From positions 1-64,000 of the forward strand of contig JAFLKN010000041.1 in the NCBI GenBank assembly GCA_019163175.1: a DNA stretch of 64,000 bases. The letters are read 5' to 3'. The position numbers were made by a program, and so were the translations under genes. Below the pieces are notes generated by a model. The model made no database searches. It was not told where the DNA came from and saw only the letters and a program-made list of their open reading frames with translations. Source of the DNA: Prolixibacteraceae bacterium. Lineage in GTDB: Bacteria; Bacteroidota; Bacteroidia; Bacteroidales; Prolixibacteraceae. Numbering within the stretch: the stretch's first letter is position 1; the number at the start of each line of letters is the position of its first letter. This document shows positions 14,066 through 28,721 of the stretch, piece after piece.

Positions 14066-16279
14066 TTAAGCAATTGATTTACTGCGTGATTGGTGTGTAA
14101 TTATGCTTTTTATTAATAGCCGGAATTTTGATCTTTTTCGAGGTAAATCGCCGAGAATTGTTTCCATTTCTTCAATCGCAACACCATTCAATAAAACTTT
14201 TGGTTTTATTGGTTTAGTTACCTCAAGTACTTCAGCGAGTATATTGGCATCAGCCTTAGACCAAGTTCTATTTGCCCGGCAAACCAAAAACGAATGGTCT
14301 GCGGTTTTAAAAAGATTTACCGGATAGGATGAATTAATAATCCCTGGGAATTCCACAAAAATAAAATCATAAATTTCCCATTTAGGACTAAAGTTTGGAG
14401 TTACCAATCCTTTAATATCTGAAATTTGATAAAAATTATTTGAGATGATAAATTGCGCATGGTCAAATGAAACATCGGTTAATTCGATCGATTGGTGAGG
14501 GTACAGAAATAAAACCTTATGCCCAATATTACTTAATTGTTCAGAAACACGCTTAAGAAGAAAACTTTTCCCTTCTTGTTCCCGGGTACTGAATGCGATT
14601 ATAATAGAAGGTTTTTCTCCTTTTTTTGTGGTTAACGAATGAAGCAACAATCTTCTGGCCAGAACTTCTGAGCTTTTTTTCTCTACATAGTCTAAGTCAA
14701 TCTTTTGTTTCTTTTTTATAACAGCGGGAAATATACTTTCAACCTCAAGTCCGGTTTCCTCTTCTGTTTTTGGAGCAATACGCATTGATGAGTCAAGAAA
14801 ATCGAAAACCAGGATAGAAAAAATAGTGATTAAAAAACCAACAAGAGCCGCTGCAAGAATCATGATTTTACTTTTATCAGCTTGCGGATTTGAAGGGTAA
14901 AATGGTGCATCTAAAATCGTTCCACCAGATGAAGCTTCGGCACTTTGCTGTTTAAGCTTAGCTAAACCTAAATTTTTAACCAAAGAAATATACTCATCCT
15001 CAAAAACGTTAATCTTTCGTTCTAAACGTCTCATTGTTGCACCCATTGGTGCATATTGAGAGTATATCTTAATAAAATCGGCGCGTAGTCTTTCTAAGGT
15101 CGATAACTGTGCCATTGTGCCCTCATAATCAATTACATTAGATAGCCAATCGTTGATAATACTATTGGTCGGAATCCCGGTAATGCTGTTGTTTAGACCA
15201 TATAAAGAGTCAACAACTAATTTCATTTGTAATTTCAGGTCTATCGATTTTTGAAATAAACTCTGATTTTGGGCTCTCTCTGATGCGCTTAACTCTTCTT
15301 CATTACTTAAAGAACCGACAGCTATTTCCTGATTTACTTTTGCCAGCTGATTCCTTAAGGTCAGTAGTTGAGTACTTGTTATTCTTCGTTTATCTTCAGG
15401 AGTCATTTTGCGTTCCAATAATTCAATAATTGCTTTTGAAGAAGCATTTTGCTTAAGAACTTCCTGAAAGCCAGCTTCGAATTGTTCCTTTCTTGCAGCG
15501 ATAAACTTACTTTGTTCGTTGTAGTTGATGATTTGGTTTACCTGATTAAACGAGAGCAATTCATTTTCAGAAATTCGCAATTTCTCCGCAGCTTTCGCTA
15601 CCTCACTTTCAAAATAAGCAACTGCATTATCCGATTGGCTTGCTTTCTGCGAGAGATAAGATTTTCTGTATACTTCAATTAAAAAGCTCAGTGTATTTTG
15701 ACAAATTCCGGGATCATTCGCTTCGTAGGTTAATTCTAAATTGTCGCTGCTTTGTAGGCGTCTGACTCTTAGTTTTCCAAGTATTGTGCTTGCACCATAA
15801 TATGGATGAGTTTTACCTACCAGATTTGTGATATAATTGTTTGCTGAACTCTTCTTGTATTGATTGAGTTTTATGTAAGTCTCATCGAAGTTTCCTGCTA
15901 TTTTTAGGTTCTTAATTTCATCAGGAATACTCTTTATCAATTCACTATAATTTTCAGGCAAGATAACTTGCGGATCGTTTTCTTCGAGTATCAAATGGCT
16001 TGTAAAAAGTCGCAGCCCAACTTCTTCAAGAGTTTCTCTCGATTTAATAATCCCCATTAAATTATCAAATGCTGTATTTATTGTATTGAAAGTCAGGCTT
16101 GTAAGGTCGATTGAGTTGCCTGAGGCAAGGCTCGTGTATACTATGGCCTGTGACGAATAGGTTCTTGGTACATCTTTGGTGAGGAAAAATACTGCGGTTC
16201 CCAATATAATCGGTACGGCAACAATTAGATACAGGTGTTTTAAAAAAAGTCGGATAAAGTATAGTAAGTTAAATCTCAT
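14066..16279 (-). CDS. Wzc-like polysaccharide copolymerase with degenerate kinase domain
   Basis: The 737-residue protein has the PCP-2a layout. A first membrane helix lies at about 16-33, a long periplasmic coiled-coil region at 200-445, a proline-containing second helix near 456-492 (PFYPSNPQADK just before it), and a cytoplasmic P-loop domain follows. The P-loop domain keeps a Walker A-like REQEGKS (566-572). At the Walker A' site it has VLFLYPHQ (589-596) with no aspartate, and the Walker B site reads FIFVEFP (639-645), with glutamate in place of the usual D. The C-terminus has no tyrosine cluster. It should still control chain length and export, but autophosphorylation of the Wzc kind is unlikely. 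It lies 117 bases after the TolC-like gene. Confidence 0.85.
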   Translation of the reverse strand: MRFNLLYFIRLFLKHLYLIVAVPIILGTAVFFLTKDVPRTYSSQAIVYTSLASGNSIDLTSLTFNTINTAFDNLMGIIKSRETLEEVGLRLFTSHLILEENDPQVILPENYSELIKSIPDEIKNLKIAGNFDETYIKLNQYKKSSANNYITNLVGKTHPYYGASTILGKLRVRRLQSSDNLELTYEANDPGICQNTLSFLIEVYRKSYLSQKASQSDNAVAYFESEVAKAAEKLRISENELLSFNQVNQIINYNEQSKFIAARKEQFEAGFQEVLKQNASSKAIIELLERKMTPEDKRRITSTQLLTLRNQLAKVNQEIAVGSLSNEEELSASERAQNQSLFQKSIDLKLQMKLVVDSLYGLNNSITGIPTNSIINDWLSNVIDYEGTMAQLSTLERLRADFIKIYSQYAPMGATMRRLERKINVFEDEYISLVKNLGLAKLKQQSAEASSGGTILDAPFYPSNPQADKSKIMILAAALVGFLITIFSILVFDFLDSSMRIAPKTEEETGLEVESIFPAVIKKKQKIDLDYVEKKSSEVLARRLLLHSLTTKKGEKPSIIIAFSTREQEGKSFLLKRVSEQLSNIGHKVLFLYPHQSIELTDVSFDHAQFIISNNFYQISDIKGLVTPNFSPKWEIYDFIFVEFPGIINSSYPVNLFKTADHSFLVCRANRTWSKADANILAEVLEVTKPIKPKVLLNGVAIEEMETILGDLPRKRSKFRLLIKSIITHQSRSKSIA

Positions 16280-16396: not shown

Positions 16397-17158
16397 TTAG
16401 AGTTTTAACTGAAATCCAACTAATTCTTCCAATAGCCAGATTGCACTACTTAGGGCGCTTTTAGCATCTGTTAATTCGAGTTTTGCTTTTGAATTAGCCA
16501 TTTTTATAGTTGTAACTTCCTGAACAGAGATTCTACTGTTTAGAAAATCCTTTTCTGCATTTTGTAGGTTTATTTCGTGCGATTCAAAATCGTCAAGAAG
16601 TATCTTGTATTTTTGATAGGCATTTGTGAGGTTTAAATATTTGGTGTTAACTTCTTCGCGTATACTCTTGACAAGAATAAGACGTTGCATTTCAGTTTTT
16701 TGCAATTCAATTTCGGCTTTCCGCAAGTCTTGGTGATCAAACAAAGTAGTAATAGGAATTTTTAGAGAGAATCCGACTGAATAATGTGAATCGGCTTTGG
16801 AGTTTGTACTTAGTTGACCGAGTCCAAGGTTTTCACTTAGAATTAAATTATCGCCATAATTATAACTAGCATTTCCGGAAATAATATTTTTTGACCAATT
16901 TTTTCGTGCATTGTTGATCTCCATATCTTTAATGCGCAAATCAAGTGATTGCATCTTCAGCATTGGAGCGTGAAATAGTGCAGAATCAATCAATGATTCT
17001 AAGCTAGGTAATTTGGACAGAAAGCTATCAATTTCATTTTTTTGAGAATTATCGCTTTTATCAGGAATTACATTCGATTGGGCAAAAACTCCCACTGTAG
17101 TTCCTAATGTGCTCAGAATAAAATAAGTAAGGAACAATAGGGTATTGAAATTTTTCAT
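16397..17158 (-). CDS. Half-length TolC-family outer membrane protein
   Basis: The 253-residue product starts with a signal peptide (hydrophobic from about residue 6 to 24, cleavage likely after VFAQ). The mature part looks like one half of a TolC protomer: LESLIDSALFHAPMLKMQSL (helix start), a strand pair around GNASYNYGDNL and HYSVGFSLKIPI, then long helices to the end. Complete TolC proteins have two such halves and about 430-490 residues, so this one is about half the usual size. The open reading frame is intact with its own signal peptide, so it does not look like debris. It may form an oligomer of single-repeat subunits and serve as the outer membrane exit for the polysaccharide, since no Wza-like gene is present. 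That role is inferred. Confidence 0.75.
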   Translation of the reverse strand: MKNFNTLLFLTYFILSTLGTTVGVFAQSNVIPDKSDNSQKNEIDSFLSKLPSLESLIDSALFHAPMLKMQSLDLRIKDMEINNARKNWSKNIISGNASYNYGDNLILSENLGLGQLSTNSKADSHYSVGFSLKIPITTLFDHQDLRKAEIELQKTEMQRLILVKSIREEVNTKYLNLTNAYQKYKILLDDFESHEINLQNAEKDFLNSRISVQEVTTIKMANSKAKLELTDAKSALSSAIWLLEELVGFQLKL

Positions 17159-17242: not shown

Positions 17243-18448
17243 TCAAACATTTTCTTTCTGAAAAACGGCGGGTATTGTTCGCAATATGATCCAGATATCT
17301 TTCCAAAATGAAAATCTACTTTTTGCGATTTCCGAATATTTATTATCCAATCCTTTTCGTTCTTCAGGCGACATTTTACTTGATTTTCCGCGAGCCTCAA
17401 CCTGCCAAAGCCCTGTAATTCCGGCAGGTCCATGAAATCTATCAGTCCAATCGTCAGTTGTTAAAAGTTCTGCTTCGTACATGGGAAGAGGTCGGTTGCC
17501 AACGATTGACATATCGCCTTTAATTACATTTATCAATTGAGGTAATTCGTCGATACTCAATTTGCGGATTATATGTCCAACTTTTGTAATACGAGGATCG
17601 TTCTCGAATTTAACAAAGGCAGTTTCCTGCTTTTCTTTTTTTGTTTTAAGGTGTTCTGCTTCAGATACTGTATTTTCATCACCAATTAAAGTTGAACTTT
17701 CATTCTGAAACGGATGTGAAATTGGCTTTTGAGCTTGGTTTTCTTTTTTTGATTGTGTAGGATGAGCTTCTTTCAGATATTGATTCAGATGCGAAAGCTC
17801 CTGTAAACGCTTATCAGCATTGGTGTACATCGAACGTAATTTATAAAAATCAAAAACCTTATAGCCCGATCCAACTCTTTTTGAAATGTAGTAAACTTTT
17901 CCTTTTGATTCGAACCGTATGGCAATTACAAAAAGAATAAGCAATGGTGAAATGAGTAATAAACCAACGGATGCAGAGACAATATCGAAGGTTCTTTTAA
18001 AGAATGGTGTTTTGTAAGGAGTAGGTAGAACTCTGTTTACTGAAGCACTATCTGCAAGTGGTTTTATTTTTTTTAAAATAAGTATTCTACTTATAATAGT
18101 TTCCGCTTTAGTCGGTTTGATGTAAACATCATCAATTTTTTTCTGAAGTGCTTTTGTAACAGTTTCCTGATTCTTTTCATCGTCGAGAATAATAAACGGA
18201 ATTTTTTTTTCAGGATCAAACTGTTCAATCCAAAAATCAAAAACTCCAAACCCATTACCTCCCGGCAACTTTCTTTCGCAAATAACCCCATCAGGCATTC
18301 CGTTGGTTGTTATCCATTGGCTGGCCGAAAATGGATTGTCAGTTGTACATATCTCAACCGTATAATTTTCAAATATTACAGGAGATATAAACTCCGGATC
18401 AGCACCTATATGTAGAAGTCTAAGTTTAGCCTGATTGATGGTTTCCAT
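17243..18448 (-). CDS. Phosphoglycosyl transferase (WcaJ-like) fused to a degenerate receiver domain
   Basis: The 401-residue protein has two parts. Residues about 8-125 follow the receiver fold pattern, but the phosphoacceptor region reads GVICERKLPGGNGF, with Glu/Arg where Asp would be. The acidic pair is missing, while the KP of the final loop is retained (111-112). Residues 145-401 are a bacterial sugar transferase (PF02397-like): FFKRTFDIVSASVGLLLISPL with one reentrant membrane helix, YKLRSM (202-207), DPRITKVG (284-291), LSIDELPQLINVIKGDMSIVGNRP (298-320) and GPAGITGLWQV (340-350). It should load the first sugar-1-phosphate onto undecaprenyl phosphate. An extra 60-residue polar, low-complexity stretch (about 217-276) interrupts the catalytic domain. 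It follows the receiver gene by 11 bases. Confidence 0.85.
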   Translation of the reverse strand: METINQAKLRLLHIGADPEFISPVIFENYTVEICTTDNPFSASQWITTNGMPDGVICERKLPGGNGFGVFDFWIEQFDPEKKIPFIILDDEKNQETVTKALQKKIDDVYIKPTKAETIISRILILKKIKPLADSASVNRVLPTPYKTPFFKRTFDIVSASVGLLLISPLLILFVIAIRFESKGKVYYISKRVGSGYKVFDFYKLRSMYTNADKRLQELSHLNQYLKEAHPTQSKKENQAQKPISHPFQNESSTLIGDENTVSEAEHLKTKKEKQETAFVKFENDPRITKVGHIIRKLSIDELPQLINVIKGDMSIVGNRPLPMYEAELLTTDDWTDRFHGPAGITGLWQVEARGKSSKMSPEERKGLDNKYSEIAKSRFSFWKDIWIILRTIPAVFQKENV

Positions 18449-18459
18449 AAAACAATGGT

Positions 18460-18825
18460 TTAGCGAAGTAAGATTTTCTCAATGCGAATTAGCAATTCTT
18501 CAGGATTAAATGGTTTTACAATATAATCTTCGGCTCCGAGTTTTAAGCATTGAACTCTATCGGCACTGCTATCTTTGCTGCTTAACACAACAATCGGGAT
18601 ATTTTTAAAATAGCCACTTTCTTTCAAACGCTGTATCAATTCAACACCATCCATATTTGGCATTTGCAAGTCGGTAATAATTATGTCGGGAATATTGCCC
18701 TGCTGAAGCCAGGTAAGCGCTTCAATACCATCTTCTTTTGTTTCAACAACGTACTGACTGCTTAAAAACTGAATGAGAAGGTTAGTGATGGATGACTTGT
18801 CATCGACAATTAGTATTTTTTTCAT
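18460..18825 (-). CDS. Single-domain response regulator (CheY-like)
   Basis: The 121-residue protein is one intact receiver domain and nothing else. The acidic pair is D8-D9 (ILIVDDK), the phosphoacceptor is D52 (IIITDLQMP), the switch residue is S82 or S83 (VVLSSKD), and the conserved lysine is K104 (YIVKPF). No output domain follows. It is the first gene of the exopolysaccharide operon, so it likely acts by binding a partner protein, perhaps a kinase, an HPt protein or the receiver-fused phosphoglycosyl transferase just downstream. The divergent operon encodes a hybrid kinase with an HPt domain, a natural candidate phosphodonor. This partnership is an inference from position. Confidence 0.9.
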   Translation of the reverse strand: MKKILIVDDKSSITNLLIQFLSSQYVVETKEDGIEALTWLQQGNIPDIIITDLQMPNMDGVELIQRLKESGYFKNIPIVVLSSKDSSADRVQCLKLGAEDYIVKPFNPEELLIRIEKILLR

Positions 18826-18959
18826 AATGTCAACTCTTAATTGATTTTGTATTACAGTTGACCAAATTTATATAAAAAAAGTAATTATTTATTGTAATGT
18901 CAAGTAATCTGGAGATTCTGTTGAAAAAAGATTTTTTGAAGGGATGGGATTTGATATAA

Positions 18960-18997
18960 AAAGAAAAAAGGATAGATTCTCTAATCCATCCTTTTCC
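18960..18997 (-). terminator. Candidate leader attenuator upstream of the exopolysaccharide operon
   Basis: On the minus strand, upstream of the receiver gene, a hairpin with a 7-bp outer stem (AAAGGAT/ATCCTTT), one mismatch and a 4-bp inner stem (GATT/AATC around a 4-base loop) is followed by a T-rich tract (TTTTTTCTTTTT). It lies about 135 bases before the first start codon and about 60 bases after the candidate transcription start. That position fits a conditional terminator in the 5' leader, not the end of a gene. The hairpin could also stop RNA coming from the opposite direction, but the plus-strand T-run is only four bases. Confidence 0.55.
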
Positions 18998-19065
18998 TAA
19001 ACCTAACTAAACTAACTAAACCAATAAAACTAATCAAACCTAACTTATGAAATGTGATAACGTTA

Positions 19066-19073
19066 CAAAGATA
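19066..19073 (-). promoter_or_regulatory. Candidate -7 element for the exopolysaccharide operon
   Basis: On the minus strand the octamer is TATCTTTG, a full match to the Bacteroidota -7 consensus TAnnTTTG. The expected upstream TTG is only partly matched (TTC at the right spacing). It would start transcription near 19,058 and give a leader of about 230 bases before the receiver start codon, containing the hairpin at 18,960-18,997. Confidence 0.45.
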
Positions 19074-19420
19074 TGGTATACGCCAGAGAAAAGTGTTAAT
19101 TGAATCTTAAATAATATGCTCTATAACATTAAATGTTTGTACCAGACAAAATGTTGAAATGTATTTTATTTTTCGATATCAATTAACCAGATTTTGCAAT
19201 CTTTTTTGTTTTACCTGTGTATGGAATTTAAAAGTTGAAAATGATGGAAGTTGAAGTTTGTTATTGGACTCAAGATCGATAATTGAATAAGATCGTTTTA
19301 ATCTTTGCAAAAATTATAAGATTAAATGAACCTTTACTTCCAGAATACTTGGTATGTTTTATCTATTATTGTCTATATTTAGAAAATTAAAATTTGCATT
19401 TGGAAAAAATTTGTCTGGAT

Positions 19421-20563
19421 ATGAAAACGGAACAGTCAATTTTTGAAGAGAATAATGGATGGAGCACCAGAAATGAGGCCGGTTTGGGAGAAAGTGCTCA
19501 ATTGGTTTTTTTATTTGGCCAAACTAAATTATTGAAAGATATAAACCCATTTGAGCAGGTTCGAAATACCTATCCAAATGCGGAGATTGTTGGATGTTCA
19601 ACCTCAGGTGAAATTTGTGGGGTAGACGTTCTAAATGAAAATATTGTTTGTACAGCCATCAATTTTGAGAAAACCACAATCAAAGTTTTTAGCGAGAGAA
19701 TTGAGTCAATGGAACAAAGCTTTCATATCGGAAAAAATCTTGCCGGTAAGTTTAATAAAGATAAGCTTGTGCATGTTATGATTTTTTCTGAAGGTTTGAA
19801 TATCAACGGAAGTGACCTTGTTCGTGGATTAAATTCATCTTTTAATAACTCAATTCCAATTACTGGTGGGTTGGCTGCCGACCAGGCTTTTTTTAAAGAA
19901 ACTGTTGTTGTGCATAACCAGGTAGGTCAATCTAATTTGGTTGTAGCCATTGGTTTTTATGGTGATTATCTGAGAACTGGATATGGATCTATGGGTGGAT
20001 GGGATTCTTTTGGGTTAGATCGTTTAGTTACCAAATCCAAATCTAATGTCTTATATGAGTTGGACGGTCAGCCTGCACTTGATCTTTATAAGAAATATCT
20101 TGGCGAGTTTGCTGCAAAATTACCATCGTCTGCATTGCTGTTCCCGCTAAATTTAAAAATAACTAATTCTGAAACCCCATTAGTGCGAACGGTATTATCG
20201 GTTAATGAGGCTGATGGGAGTATGGTTTTTGCTGGTGATATACCTGAAGGAGAGTACGTACGTTTAATGAAAGCCAATTTTGATAAATTAATTGATGGTG
20301 CGTCTGGAGCCGCTGAGATGTCACTATTTAATGACATTAATACAGAACCTGATTTAGCTATACTAATAAGCTGTGTAGGTCGAAAACTAGTTTTAAAACA
20401 ACGTGTGGAAGAGGAATTGGATGTTGTAAAAGATGTTATTGGATCGAAAACTATTATGACAGGCTTTTATTCGTATGGAGAAATTTGTCCTATTCAGTCG
20501 AATGATAACTGTTGCGAATTACACAATCAAACCATGACTATTACGGTTTTCAAGGAGATATAA
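19421..20563 (+). CDS. FIST domain sensor protein
   Basis: I take the ATG at 19,421 (380 residues) over a TTG 27 bases earlier. The N-terminal half has the FIST N pattern: QLVFLFGQTKLL, NAEIVGCSTSGEI (the conserved GCSTxGEI block) and a SITGGLAAD-like PITGGLAAD segment. The C-terminal half is FIST C, ending with GFYSYGEICPI. FIST proteins are thought to bind small ligands such as amino acids, and they occur next to signalling proteins. No membrane helix or signal peptide is visible, so this is a cytoplasmic sensor. The kinase gene starts 12 bases after its stop, so the two form an operon and the FIST protein probably modulates that kinase. Confidence 0.87.
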   Translation: MKTEQSIFEENNGWSTRNEAGLGESAQLVFLFGQTKLLKDINPFEQVRNTYPNAEIVGCSTSGEICGVDVLNENIVCTAINFEKTTIKVFSERIESMEQSFHIGKNLAGKFNKDKLVHVMIFSEGLNINGSDLVRGLNSSFNNSIPITGGLAADQAFFKETVVVHNQVGQSNLVVAIGFYGDYLRTGYGSMGGWDSFGLDRLVTKSKSNVLYELDGQPALDLYKKYLGEFAAKLPSSALLFPLNLKITNSETPLVRTVLSVNEADGSMVFAGDIPEGEYVRLMKANFDKLIDGASGAAEMSLFNDINTEPDLAILISCVGRKLVLKQRVEEELDVVKDVIGSKTIMTGFYSYGEICPIQSNDNCCELHNQTMTITVFKEI

Positions 20564-20575
20564 ATTGAATATTTT

Positions 20576-23263
20576 ATGGAATCCATAAATAAGCTTTTGT
20601 TGCGGCAAATCAAAAAACATTTCGGCTCAATTGAAAATATCCCTGAGAGTTATCAAGAGTTTCTTGCTGATATCAGTGATTCCTATAATAATAGGGAAGC
20701 CGAGGCTCGCCTGTATCAGAATGCATTGGACATAAGCTCGCAGGAACTGAGAGATGCTTTTCTGAAACAAAAGCAGGATACAGAAATTCAAAAAGAAACA
20801 ATCAAGAAAGTAAAAGAGGCTATTTATGCGCTTAATCCTTTAGGACAGGATATAGAGCATGAATCTGGTGAAAATGACACAACTTTTCTTTTCAACTCCC
20901 TGATTCAATTGATAGCTGAGCACAAGAGAATGGAATTGTCGCTAAAGGAAAGCGAATTTTACCTGCGCGAAATATTAGATTCTCAGGAGGTAGGTGTTAT
21001 TATTATTGATTCTGAATCTCATCAAATTTTGTTTGTAAATAAAAAGGGAGCAAATCTGTATGGGGGAACCAAAGAGGAAATTATAGGAAAACTTTGTCAT
21101 GGCATCATTTGCCCAACATTAATTAACGATTGTAAACTACATGATTCTAGTTTTCCAGTAAGTGCTACTGAAAAAATTCTGGTTACTTTAAATGGTGAGC
21201 ATATTCCAATTCTGAAATCCGTCGTTCATACGACTTTTAATAAACGAAAATGTTACGTTGAGTCATTTGTTGATATCAGAGACTGGAAAAAAGCAGAAGA
21301 GGAACTTATTAATGCCAAAGACATAGCAGAAGAAGCGAATAAAGCAAAATCAGAATTTCTGGCAAATATGAGTCACGAAATCAGAACACCGTTGAATGGT
21401 GTAATTGGGTTTTCAGATTTATTAATGAAGACAAATCTGTCCGAAAATCAGATGCATTATATGCAAACTGTTTATTATTCAGCTAATTCTTTACTCGATC
21501 TTATCAATGATATCCTTGACTTTTCCAAAATAGAATCTGGCAAGTTCGAGCTAAATGATGAGAAGACTGATCTCATTGAGTTATCTGAGCAAATTATCGA
21601 CATCATAAAATATAAGGTTCACGAAAAGGGGCTGGAGCTCCTGTTAAATATCCCGGCCGATATTCCGCGTTTTATTGAGGTTGATCCGGTCAGGCTTCGT
21701 CAGGTTTTGGTTAATCTACTTGGAAACGCTCTTAAATTTACCGATCGGGGAGAAGTTGAATTTAAAATACTGCTCAAATCTTACGATTTAGTTTCAGGTG
21801 AAGCCGAGCTCGAATTTTCGGTTAAGGATACAGGTATCGGAATTGCAAAAGATAAGCAACAAAAAATATTCGAATCATTTTCACAAGCCGATTCTACAAC
21901 CACACGTCAGTATGGCGGTACGGGGCTCGGTTTGACTATTTCAGGAAAACTGGTTGAAATGATGGGAGGGCAACTTCAGCTTGAAAGCGAACTAGGCATA
22001 GGGAGTCGATTTTTTTATACTATAAAAGTTAAAGCCGAGCACGGATTGCCGGGAAAATCCAAATCGATAGAGAACATTCATAAGGCGCTGGTGGTCGATA
22101 ACAATAAAACAAATCGGACTATTTTGCAACAAATGCTTTTTAGTCAAAATATTGATGTCGATTTTGCTACTTGTGCCGAGGGTGCAATTCGGAAATTAGA
22201 ATCCGAAACTGTATATGATGTATTGATTATCGATTTTGATATGCCCGGAATGAACGGATTTGATTTGATTAGGTCAATCAGGGAAAAGGGTGAATTAGCA
22301 TTAGTTAAAAAACCGATTATTTTACTTCATAATTCTCCTGATGATGAACTAATTAATGCAGAAGGACATAAATTGGGAGTGAAATTTTCAATGATTAAGC
22401 CTGTTAAGATGACTCAGCTTTTCAATGCTCTTTCCCGAATTAATAGTGAAGAACCGACAAAAAGTGCCATTGATAATCAACGTGCCAGTGATGATGCGGA
22501 TGATCTTCTCCTACATGCTAAGTTTAAAATATTGGTGGCTGAAGATAACAAAACCAATATGAAGTTAGCACAAGCTATCCTGCATCAGTTAATGCCTGGC
22601 TTTAAATTTATTAAGGCGCATGATGGGAACGAAGCATTGGCATTATATAAGGAATACAATCCTGACTTAATATTTATGGATATAAGTATGCCTGAAATGA
22701 ACGGATACGATTGTGCCCGTGAGATTAGGCAGGTTGAAATGTCAACAGGCAAACATGTTCCAATAATCGCTTTAACGGCAGGAACTGTGAAGGGTGAGGA
22801 AGTCAGATGTAAAGATGCCGGAATGGATGATTATGTCTCGAAACCTGTTGTCGCGGATACTATTCGAAATATACTATCTGTATGGCTGTTAGGATTAACT
22901 CCGAATTTGTCCGGAAAGCCTGATAAATTCAATACCAGGCATTTTGATAAAGCGGAGCTTCTAAAAAGATTAAATGGTGATGAAGAACTTTGTAATGAAT
23001 TGATTACATTGTCTTTTGAAACTTATCCCGACCTGTTTAATGATCTTAAAGTTGCATTTGAGAATGAACAAAGTATGGATGTCAGACTTATTGCTCATTC
23101 CATAAAGGGTTCGGCATTAAGCATTTGCTACAATCAGCTTGCTGATCAGGCCTCTAAACTCGAATTACTTCCAATAACAGAAAGAAATACTGCAAGCGAA
23201 CTTCTTTCTCAGATGGAAAACGAATACAAATTGCTGAAAAGACTCTTGATTTCAGCGCCATAA
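20576..23263 (+). CDS. Hybrid histidine kinase with PAS, HisKA, HATPase, two receivers and HPt
   Basis: The 895-residue protein has a helical N-terminus (about 1-125), a PAS domain (about 126-235), HisKA with the H-box FLANMSHEIRTP (His 267), and HATPase_c with N-box LLGNALKF and G-boxes DTGIGI and GGTGLGL. A receiver at about 503-620 (Asp 553) follows, then a second at 650-770 (Asp 702), and a C-terminal HPt domain at about 790-890 (AHSIKGSA, His 841). The first receiver is imperfect: it has DN in place of the acidic pair and H where T/S is expected in ILLHNS. The second has an intact set. No membrane helices are seen, so it is cytosolic and likely reads the FIST protein or another internal cue. 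No DNA-binding partner is adjacent. Confidence 0.9.
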   Translation: MESINKLLLRQIKKHFGSIENIPESYQEFLADISDSYNNREAEARLYQNALDISSQELRDAFLKQKQDTEIQKETIKKVKEAIYALNPLGQDIEHESGENDTTFLFNSLIQLIAEHKRMELSLKESEFYLREILDSQEVGVIIIDSESHQILFVNKKGANLYGGTKEEIIGKLCHGIICPTLINDCKLHDSSFPVSATEKILVTLNGEHIPILKSVVHTTFNKRKCYVESFVDIRDWKKAEEELINAKDIAEEANKAKSEFLANMSHEIRTPLNGVIGFSDLLMKTNLSENQMHYMQTVYYSANSLLDLINDILDFSKIESGKFELNDEKTDLIELSEQIIDIIKYKVHEKGLELLLNIPADIPRFIEVDPVRLRQVLVNLLGNALKFTDRGEVEFKILLKSYDLVSGEAELEFSVKDTGIGIAKDKQQKIFESFSQADSTTTRQYGGTGLGLTISGKLVEMMGGQLQLESELGIGSRFFYTIKVKAEHGLPGKSKSIENIHKALVVDNNKTNRTILQQMLFSQNIDVDFATCAEGAIRKLESETVYDVLIIDFDMPGMNGFDLIRSIREKGELALVKKPIILLHNSPDDELINAEGHKLGVKFSMIKPVKMTQLFNALSRINSEEPTKSAIDNQRASDDADDLLLHAKFKILVAEDNKTNMKLAQAILHQLMPGFKFIKAHDGNEALALYKEYNPDLIFMDISMPEMNGYDCAREIRQVEMSTGKHVPIIALTAGTVKGEEVRCKDAGMDDYVSKPVVADTIRNILSVWLLGLTPNLSGKPDKFNTRHFDKAELLKRLNGDEELCNELITLSFETYPDLFNDLKVAFENEQSMDVRLIAHSIKGSALSICYNQLADQASKLELLPITERNTASELLSQMENEYKLLKRLLISAP

Positions 23264-26099: not shown

Positions 26100-28721
26100 A
26101 TGCAGAATGAACATAAATACCTTATGTCGAAGATAGAGAAGCTTGAAAATGGAAATTCTGTACTGACCCAAGGGACAGAAGATATTCTACTTTTAGGATT
26201 GGCCGCTGAAATCATATACCAAACTGAAGACTCTGTACTATTAGTTGATCAGATATTGGAGCGAATTTCGATATTGAAAGATATTCCATTTTGTGGTTGT
26301 CTGGAACTGGGTGTTGATGGGTTGCTGGTTGAAGGACTATATGCTTCGTTTGGCGAATTGAAAAAAAATGAAGTTCACTTTGCATTTTCTGAAGTAAGTT
26401 CCCGCATTCTACAAACTGAGAGATACCTGATTATAGACGAACCTGAATTTGAGTCATATGGCTTCTCATTGACACTATCCAATCAATCTTTTCGCCCAAG
26501 CTCTGCATTAATTATTCCTTGCTTTTGTAAAGGCATTTATAATAGATACTTTGTTTTTCTTGATGATTGCAAAACGGGTGGCAGATTCCCTCAAATGCTG
26601 TCGCTTATGCAGCAAATTGTGCAACTTGCCGCTGAAAGACTTGTAAATATATTTATGTACGGAGAGTTGAACCGCTTAAATGGTGAACTCGATAGACGTG
26701 TAAAAGAACGGACTGAGGAACTTACACAAACAAATAAAAATCTCAACCGAGAAATTAATGAACGTAAAGTAATTGAAAAGGCCTTGCGGGCAAATGAACG
26801 TAAACTTAGGTCAGTCTATAATGCTGCTATTGATGTTTCGTTTATTACTTTCGATTTGTCAGATAAATTTATCATCCGGAGTTTTAGTCCAGGCGCCGAG
26901 AAAATGTTCGGATTTTTGCCTAAAGAGGTGATTGGTAAACCCATTGAAAGGTTCCATTTATTAAATCAGGCCGACTTTTTCCCAACATTAAAACAAGATT
27001 TCGAACTGATGGGATGGAGTCGTCATGATGAAATTACAATGCTTCGTAATTCCGGAGAATCATTTACAGCCATGTTAACTGTTTATCCTTTGTATGATGA
27101 AGACTTGAAACTCATTGATGCATTGGCGGTTTGTATTGATATTTCTGAATTAAAACAAACACAGAATCAACTGATACATGCCCGCGAAAAAGCAGAAGAA
27201 AATGAATTTAAGTTTAGGAATTTATTTGAACAAGCGTCTGATGGTATTTTTATTACAAACAGCGAAGGCGATTTTCTTGAATTGAACGAAAGCGGCTGTG
27301 AAATGCTTGGCTATACACGAGACGAACTACTTAAACTGAACCTGTCTGATGTTATTTTACGGGAAAGTCTGAAAAATAATCCGATTAAAAGAGATGAAAT
27401 GGCTGGCGGAAAAGTTGCCATTGCTCAAAGAATTCTGATTCGAAAAGACAGGTCAAGATTTCAGGCTGAAATTAGTGGTAAAATGATTTCGGATGGGCGA
27501 ATGCAGGGAATGGTTCGCGATATTACCGATCGTAAAAAGTTTGAAGTTGAGCTAATTGCTGCAAAGGAGAGGGCGGAAGAAAATGACAGGTTGAAAACCT
27601 CCTTCCTTCAGAATATGAGTCATGAAATTAGGACTCCAATGAATGCTATTTTGGGTTTTGCCGATTTATTGCCTGAATATTTTGGTGACAAAGAAGCTTT
27701 AAACAAATTTGCTAATATAATTAAGCAGAGAGGAACCGATCTGTTGGAAATTATCAACGATATTCTCGATATCGCCCGAATTGAGTCAGGCCAGATCATG
27801 CATAATCCTGAGTATTGCAAAATGGATGGAGTTTTTACTGAAATGGAAAACTCGTTTAGCAAATATCAAAAGCGTATAAAAAAGAATCATGTGGAGTTTT
27901 ACCTTAATATTCCCGAGAATGTAAGGGCTCTTGAGATCGTTATCGATAAGGTGAAATTGAAACAAATATTGCTGAATCTGGTAGCAAATGCGTTTAAATT
28001 TACGTCTTCAGGCAAGGTTGAAGTAGGTTGTACATATAGTGATTATCAGGAGCTTTTGTTCTATGTTTCGGATACTGGTATTGGTATTTCGGAAGAGAAA
28101 CATGCTGAAATATTTAACCGCTTTACTCAAGCCACACATGACACCTCTCAACTATATGGCGGTACCGGACTTGGCCTTTCTATTGTTAAGGGTTTGCTTG
28201 ATTTGATCGGTGGAAGAATTTGGCTCGATTCAAAAATTGGAAAAGGCACAACTTTTTATTTTAGTTTACCCTTTATCTCCACTTCTAATTTTGTTGAAAC
28301 CGCATTGCCAGGAAAATTGGAATCTGATCCAGAGATTGTGGATGGTGTGATATTGGTTGTTGAAGATGACGAATTTAATACCCGCTATTTAAAAGAAATT
28401 TTACGCGATTCAGGTTACACTTTTGTACATTGTATGTATGGTGAAAAAGCCATTGAAATTTGTAATACTCAACAAATTCATTTAGTTCTGATGGATATCC
28501 GACTTCCTGATATAACTGGTTATGAGGCTATAAGAGAGATAAGAAAAACAAATCAGTCGATAAAAATTATTGTGCAAACGGCTTATGCTACTCCTGAAGA
28601 TAAAGAAAAAGCTTTTGATGTAGGATGCGACGATTATTTGAGTAAACCCATCAAGAGCGATTTGTTGCTTTCAAGAATTCATTTCTATTTAAAGCACTTT
28701 AAACATCAGGTACAGAACTAA
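26100..28721 (+). CDS. Hybrid histidine kinase with two PAS domains and one receiver
   Basis: The 873-residue protein starts with a region of about 190 residues resembling a GAF-like sensor fold (contains CGCLELGVDGLLVEGLYASF), then a coiled coil (about 187-235). Two PAS domains (about 236-355 and 370-480) lead into HisKA with FLQNMSHEIRTPMNAIL (His 508), HATPase_c (N-box NLVANAFKF, DTGIGI, GGTGLGLS) and a C-terminal receiver (DGVILVVEDDEFN, phosphoacceptor Asp 799). No membrane helix or HPt domain is seen. No response regulator gene is adjacent, and the following SDR gene is convergent, so its partner is unknown. Confidence 0.88.
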   Translation: MQNEHKYLMSKIEKLENGNSVLTQGTEDILLLGLAAEIIYQTEDSVLLVDQILERISILKDIPFCGCLELGVDGLLVEGLYASFGELKKNEVHFAFSEVSSRILQTERYLIIDEPEFESYGFSLTLSNQSFRPSSALIIPCFCKGIYNRYFVFLDDCKTGGRFPQMLSLMQQIVQLAAERLVNIFMYGELNRLNGELDRRVKERTEELTQTNKNLNREINERKVIEKALRANERKLRSVYNAAIDVSFITFDLSDKFIIRSFSPGAEKMFGFLPKEVIGKPIERFHLLNQADFFPTLKQDFELMGWSRHDEITMLRNSGESFTAMLTVYPLYDEDLKLIDALAVCIDISELKQTQNQLIHAREKAEENEFKFRNLFEQASDGIFITNSEGDFLELNESGCEMLGYTRDELLKLNLSDVILRESLKNNPIKRDEMAGGKVAIAQRILIRKDRSRFQAEISGKMISDGRMQGMVRDITDRKKFEVELIAAKERAEENDRLKTSFLQNMSHEIRTPMNAILGFADLLPEYFGDKEALNKFANIIKQRGTDLLEIINDILDIARIESGQIMHNPEYCKMDGVFTEMENSFSKYQKRIKKNHVEFYLNIPENVRALEIVIDKVKLKQILLNLVANAFKFTSSGKVEVGCTYSDYQELLFYVSDTGIGISEEKHAEIFNRFTQATHDTSQLYGGTGLGLSIVKGLLDLIGGRIWLDSKIGKGTTFYFSLPFISTSNFVETALPGKLESDPEIVDGVILVVEDDEFNTRYLKEILRDSGYTFVHCMYGEKAIEICNTQQIHLVLMDIRLPDITGYEAIREIRKTNQSIKIIVQTAYATPEDKEKAFDVGCDDYLSKPIKSDLLLSRIHFYLKHFKHQVQN

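Follow-up and report, generated by a model that had tools for sequence, protein, structure and literature searches.

Can a phosphorelay act directly on the enzyme that starts the synthesis of a polysaccharide? This question is raised by a stretch of 64,000 nucleotides from a Prolixibacteraceae bacterium (positions 1 to 64000 of contig JAFLKN010000041.1, here called the window). Four genes between 17243 and 23263 encode a single-domain response regulator (SDRR), a phosphoglycosyl transferase (PGT) with an N-terminal receiver, a FIST protein and a hybrid histidine kinase (HHK) ending in an HPt domain. A sequence-only reading had proposed that phosphate passes from the kinase through HPt to the free receiver, which would bind the transferase and switch it. 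We consider it fairly likely that the SDRR and the receiver-bearing PGT (receiver-PGT) together make up a conserved module whose output is the initiation of polysaccharide synthesis.

The free receiver and its probable transferase partner

The SDRR is encoded on the minus strand at 18460 to 18825 (121 residues; Pfam Response_reg, 5.8e-31) and has an intact phosphorylation site with D8, D9, D52, S82 and K104. The PGT gene follows 11 nt downstream (minus strand, 17243 to 18448, 401 residues). Its product fits the small monotopic, PglC-like class, with a Bac_transf catalytic domain (residues 151-397, 17258 to 17998; Pfam 1.2e-52), a DX12P motif at D155/P168, a DE dyad at 300-301 and no large N-terminal membrane bundle; the motif rule was taken from the accessible part of PMC12802240. 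The N-terminus was matched by Response_reg at residues 25-122 (5.2e-07, 30.3 bits versus a cut-off of 30.2). In this domain (residues 9-137, 18038 to 18424) Glu58 occupies the phosphoacceptor position (codon 18275 to 18277), and Gly15 and Ala16, as read by eye from the sequence, occupy the positions of the acidic pair. This fits the definition of a pseudo-receiver, a receiver fold without the residues needed for phosphotransfer, as worded in the available portion of the review PMC12632262. Coordinates, Pfam matches and residues thus bore out the earlier description of a bare receiver with intact D52 heading an exopolysaccharide operon and of a transferase receiver that had lost its Asp, a Glu standing there instead.

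The pair was then surveyed in the window, in 19 stretches from relatives, in the best 80 of at least 542 confirmed loci in named genomes and in two even, partly overlapping samples of 395 genomes each, one for the phylum and one for the class. From the samples, listed matches to about E 1e-22 were taken that covered the receiver part or had frames of roughly receiver-PGT size; some weaker or larger frames (for example in G311, G393 and G610) and PGTs too diverged for the profile lie outside the counts. The 171 receiver-PGT frames, the window's included, were reduced to 163 distinct ones by dropping repeats that share the last 140 residues. An SDRR was taken as paired when it had at most 190 residues, was encoded on the strand of the PGT and lay -80 to +400 nt upstream of it. 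An SDRR was found directly upstream in 150 of the 163 distinct receiver-PGTs (window 1/1, relatives 9/18, named genomes 74/77, samples 66/67). For a control, 15 PGTs without a receiver, 10 large and 5 bare, were collected from searches of the window's own genome and of relatives; an SDRR was upstream of none of them, one having less than 450 nt of upstream sequence. Since 150 of 163 receiver-PGTs stand against 0 of 15 control PGTs, the pairing is not a matter of chance.

The phosphorylation sites of the two partners were compared, and a site was called complete when it had at least one acid of the acidic pair, the Asp, the Ser/Thr and the Lys. It was complete in 143 of the 150 SDRRs, whereas none of the 163 PGT receivers had a complete site and only two kept both Asp and Lys. 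The column of the acidic pair was gapped in 25 of the 163, some by truncation. At the phosphosite, Glu was the commonest residue (98/163), followed by Asp (30/163), the other 35 having another residue or a gap. A constant Glu, as suggested by the first 15 sequences, was ruled out by these numbers.

The claim that the free receiver acts on the transferase is well supported by the adjacency, by the split into intact and degenerate sites and by a published case, in which the phosphorylated SDRR EpsW of Myxococcus xanthus stimulates the large PGT EpsZ post-translationally (PMC12802240, accessible part). The core of the earlier reading, from receiver to transferase, has in this way the backing of genomics. 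The earlier reading had also named a survey of genomes as a check on whether the four genes stay together; the SDRR-PGT half held, and the FIST half proved to be restricted to some lineages. Downstream on the minus strand, SDRR and PGT are followed by an OEP-family gene (16397 to 17158, after 84 nt), a gene for a Wzz-like polysaccharide co-polymerase (14066 to 16279, after another 117 nt; Pfam Wzz 9.5e-05, below its cut-off) and then more polysaccharide genes.

Where the receiver could dock

The structure of the window PGT was modelled from 38 aligned sequences (mean pLDDT 81, pTM 0.57). Residues 9-137 were predicted as a full (beta-alpha)5 receiver in which strand 3 ends at the phosphosite; the short helix 1 was predicted with less certainty. 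With Foldseek, PglC was the top match (8e37, E 2e-13; TM by target 0.82), and the matches also included many receivers. Among these was the constitutively active PhoB double mutant D10A/D53E (2jb9, E 2.6e-6), whose substitutions are of the kind seen in the PGT receiver. The catalytic domain contains a poorly ordered insert at about residues 222-283 of the model (17600 to 17785, minus strand), with a pLDDT below 50 at residues 228-250. In the insert alignment of relatives a CxxC...C pattern was seen that could be a metal site; the window insert has no Cys, and the pattern occurs somewhere in 67 of the 163 receiver-PGTs. The DE dyad was found in 153 of the 163. It reads DR or DK in L036, L037, L038 and the first copy in L129, whose transferases are probably dead, and L148 and L153 deviate as well; L037 and L038 retain their SDRR.

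A further sample of 20 stretches that contain PGTs without a recognised receiver was inspected together with the loci L205 and L206. An SDRR was one gene upstream of such a PGT in five loci (L206, L210, L212, L218 and L228), and the intervening gene encodes a DUF4842 protein in all three that were tested (L206, L212, L228). This DUF4842/DUF4114 protein has about 675 residues and lies at 1797-3821 in L206, 3587-5623 in L212 and 6221-8242 in L228; in L210 and L218 it was assigned by position. Linkage was scored as direct neighbourhood for receiver-PGTs and as an SDRR on the same strand within 3 kb upstream for receiver-less PGTs. Scored in this way, linkage followed the length of the catalytic core, with 135 of 142 long-core PGTs linked versus 24 of 44 short-core PGTs; this was seen both in the receiver-less PGTs (9/12 long, 0/11 short) and in the receiver-PGTs (126/130 long, 24/33 short). 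The p-values of the Fisher test for core length are only indicative, because the sequences are related by descent.

Several observations weigh against the favoured explanation, a conserved SDRR-PGT module. When SDRR and PGT were modelled as a single chain linked through the stop codon, two well-folded receivers were obtained (pTM 0.50), which backs the receiver folds but not a contact between them. Nine of the 13 unpaired receiver-PGTs are paralogues from the genus of the window (L036, L040-L042, L044 and L047-L050). An SDRR was also found directly upstream of a receiver-less PGT in L205, L213, L215 and L216, the last three belonging to one genus. The remaining unpaired cases are L079, where the transferase is in two frames, L094 at a contig edge, the first of two copies in L129, and L133/L207 in genome G383. 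In L207 (6935-12359) no SDRR is present, the transferase frame is without a usual start codon at its upstream end, and kinase, FIST and kinase genes lie directly upstream of it on the same strand.

A pseudo-receiver as a requirement for the pairing was ruled out by the four receiver-less loci. The receiver-less PGTs that adjoin an SDRR leave docking on the degenerate receiver unproven, and because linkage follows core length, the SDRR could dock instead on the catalytic core or on the insert within it. The phosphorylated SDRR might then act in the manner of EpsW on the catalytic domain or the insert, with the degenerate receiver serving only as a dimerisation or spacer domain. This is possible, though we think it rather unlikely, and it overlaps with the explanation favoured here in all but the docking site. 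It would agree with the receiver-less PGTs that adjoin an SDRR, with the preference for the long core and with EpsW having been modelled in contact with the DUF and the catalytic domain of EpsZ (PMC12802240, accessible part). However, the pseudo-receiver has been kept in many diverged PGTs, 150 of 163 of them beside an SDRR, the 24 short-core receiver-PGTs retain their SDRR, and the Fisher test overstates the independence of related sequences. That the SDRR targets another protein of the operon, such as the Wzz-like one, and adjoins the PGT by operon order only, is very improbable; the one gene that separates SDRR and PGT in the five receiver-less loci would fit it, whereas the PGT is the direct neighbour in 150 of 163 receiver-PGT loci.

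FIST proteins and kinases as the possible input

Divergent from the SDRR, across an intergenic region of 568 nt (18826 to 19393), the plus strand encodes a FIST protein with NosP-like architecture (19394 to 20563, 389 residues; Pfam FIST and FIST_C), which may actually begin at the ATG of position 19421. After 12 nt follows the gene for HHK (20576 to 23263, 895 residues), which has the Pfam order PAS-HisKA-HATPase-REC-REC-HPt. The HPt domain (22997 to 23218; Pfam Hpt at residues 808-881, 5.1e-08) is one of five HPt matches found in the genome. All parts of a hybrid kinase-HPt phosphorelay are present, HisKA/HATPase, receivers and HPt, each with its phosphorylatable residue (kinase H267, receiver Asp 553 and 702, HPt H841). 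The divergent FIST and hybrid kinase operon ending in His841 had been recognised from the sequence, and the analysis added that two receivers precede the HPt domain. A second hybrid kinase further along the plus strand (26100 to 28721; Pfam PAS, HisKA, HATPase and REC, no HPt match) is a possible alternative donor. In the same genus, L036, L037, L038, L041, L042, L044 and L048 have a relative of this kinase in divergent orientation to a paralogous receiver-PGT or its SDRR, at a distance of 0.2 to about 4 kb.

The layout of the window recurs. In L205, from another class, FIST and a hybrid kinase with HPt (24.7 bits versus a cut-off of 24.6) are divergent from SDRR, PGT, OEP and Wzz genes, the PGT being receiver-less; in L123 and L077 FIST and a hybrid kinase with HPt are likewise divergent from SDRR-PGT. 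In L213, L215 and L216 the hybrid kinase with HPt, the SDRR and a receiver-less PGT form one run on the same strand. A tree was computed from 46 FIST sequences, the linked ones and 18 chosen unlinked ones. Some linked FISTs formed a well supported clade (0.999) that includes a single unlinked sequence, and others shared another clade with unlinked sequences; those of the window and L205 stood on separate branches, weakly placed. As linked FISTs are thus spread over several lineages, FIST-kinase modules have probably come to stand beside SDRR-PGT on more than one occasion. In the hybrid kinases near SDRR-PGT in L123, L119 and L045, matches to the heme-NO-associated domain HNOBA were seen, a second hint of an NO-type input.

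The wider counts speak for a FIST link in one family and against a general one. FIST is uncommon, any FIST protein being present in 89 of the 395 phylum genomes. Upstream sequence of 7 kb or more was available for 61 named loci, in which FIST was scored within 10 kb; it was found in 20 of the 28 loci assigned by title to the Flavobacteriaceae versus 1 of 33 others (L116, Ferruginibacter), and kinases were near the pair in 22 of 28 and 6 of 33, respectively. The same flank was available for the window and 11 relatives; two of these twelve have FIST nearby (the window and L043) and ten a kinase. Besides the window's own, 25 sample genomes have both FIST and a receiver-PGT, and in four of them (G124, G344, G364 and G383, all of family f23) the two lie within 20 kb; five of the co-occurring genomes belong to f23, and linkage outside it was 0 of 20. 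These distances were read by hand from tables, and contig breaks could hide some links. FIST as a universal partner of SDRR-PGT was ruled out by the sample genomes and the 1 of 33. The kinase side also varies: by Pfam, the hybrid kinase beside FIST in L119 has no HPt match, and the one in L045, with no FIST nearby, has an HPt match only below the cut-off. Within the genus of the window the adjacent kinase differs between species while SDRR-PGT mostly stays, with REC-HK kinases in L033-L035, relatives of the 26100 kinase in L037 and L038, the hybrid kinase of L045, and FIST with two kinases in L043.

The proposal of the sequence-only reading that FIST and HHK with its HPt domain are the phosphate donor is therefore upheld in part, by the recurrence in L205, L077, L123 and the Flavobacteriaceae loci and by the one-run loci, and weakened by the near absence of FIST beside the receiver-PGTs examined outside the Flavobacteriaceae and by the exchange of kinases in the window's genus. 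FIST-HPt is a plausible, lineage-restricted input to SDRR-PGT. An alternative, which we regard as doubtful, is that the SDRR does switch the PGT but receives its phosphate from another kinase, such as that at 26100-28721, the FIST-HHK operon being an unrelated neighbour. The variety of kinases in the genus and the missing FIST link in 32 of 33 named loci outside the Flavobacteriaceae would be consistent with it. Against it stand the 26100 kinase having no HPt match, the HHK HPt domain being one of five found in the genome, and the FIST and HPt-bearing kinase found divergent from SDRR-PGT in three other loci.

A purely post-translational control, as first claimed, fits the genes of the locus, and no DNA-binding output gene is found in 17243-23263. 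In some relatives, DNA-binding regulators do adjoin the FIST-kinase genes by Pfam, LytTR in L057 and L208 and an NtrC-type one in L123. The FIST-kinase signal might thus reach the operon through an unlinked DNA-binding regulator, with the SDRR as a phosphate sink or feedback part. We judge this improbable, as the constant neighbour of the SDRR is the PGT and not a kinase or a DNA-binding protein. The explanations weighed here overlap, so that their likelihoods do not add up to one.

The proposed relay beside known systems

From the observed gene content, adjacency, residue states, predicted folds and recurrence we infer a relay from kinase to HPt to SDRR to PGT, and we expect, with somewhat more confidence than doubt, that the phosphorylated SDRR sets the activity of the PGT. 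HHK would autophosphorylate and pass the phosphate through its receivers to His841 of HPt and on to Asp52 of the SDRR. The phosphorylated SDRR would bind the PGT, most simply through the phosphorylation-dead receiver, as in a PleD split over two proteins, and alter how fast the first sugar-phosphate is transferred to undecaprenyl phosphate. The FIST protein would probably set the activity of HHK as NosP does for its partner kinase, and its ligand may, by the same analogy, be NO or heme. Because of the analogy to EpsW, activation of the PGT appears likelier than inhibition. Since the SDRR adjoins nearly every receiver-PGT examined, whose own receiver is degenerate, the cell's switch for polysaccharide production probably acts directly on the first step.

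PleD consists of a receiver, a pseudo-receiver and a GGDEF domain, and its true receiver, pseudo-receiver and enzyme work together. The window holds the same three parts, and a fold search with the linked SDRR-PGT model gave PleD as its best match. This match is one of architecture only, not of PleD's arrangement, because the rmsd was 13-22 A. In PleD the two receivers and GGDEF are in a single chain, whereas here the true receiver is a protein of its own and a PGT provides the output. More tentatively, with the odds slightly against it, the phosphorylated SDRR could heterodimerise with a permanently "on-like" (Glu) pseudo-receiver in the membrane enzyme and gate the first committed step. This would be a PleD in two pieces, an output module constant in much of the Bacteroidota, to which sensor kinases, NO/heme-type FIST ones among them, are swapped in. 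If true, this would explain the control of a whole class of bacterial pseudo-receivers. The about 150 adjacent pairs of a receiver and a pseudo-receiver enzyme offer a test set with a defined enzyme readout for the pseudo-receiver idea, as set out in the available portion of PMC12632262.

On the input side, NosP, a FIST protein, controls a neighbouring kinase by NO (PMC12570481, PMC8846402 and PMC11237717, accessible parts). The stand-alone FIST gene beside a histidine kinase gene in the window resembles NosP-NahK/NosK, but the outputs there are c-di-GMP-type regulators (PMC12570481 and PMC8846402, accessible parts), which are not among the four genes of the window; the output closest to the FIST and kinase genes here is an enzyme that initiates polysaccharide synthesis. 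In the available portions of the NosP literature no rule for the heme ligand was found. If the proposed relay is true, sensing by a FIST-kinase would be linked to a carbohydrate output.

Receiver domains on small monotopic PGTs have already been noted from sequence analysis (O'Toole 2021, PNAS survey, as cited in the accessible part of PMC12802240), and no publication on the SDRR/receiver-PGT pairing in Bacteroidota was found among the titles and abstract openings listed from the open-licence literature. The literature examined held a single case in which an SDRR acts on a PGT that initiates synthesis, EpsW/EpsZ (PMC12802240, accessible part). Like the window, it combines a phosphorylatable SDRR with the initiating PGT of an exopolysaccharide pathway, and the SDRR of the window, with its intact site, would act on the PGT in a similar way. 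EpsZ, however, is a large PGT with a membrane bundle and a DUF, whereas the PGT of the window is small and PglC-like with only receiver and Bac_transf domains; EpsW receives its phosphate from the Dif kinase DifE, and the donor proposed for the window is a hybrid kinase with HPt beside a FIST protein. If the module is true, SDRR control of PGTs extends beyond EpsW/EpsZ to another PGT class and phylum, with the small PGT, the pseudo-receiver, the HPt relay and the FIST input as its predicted new elements.

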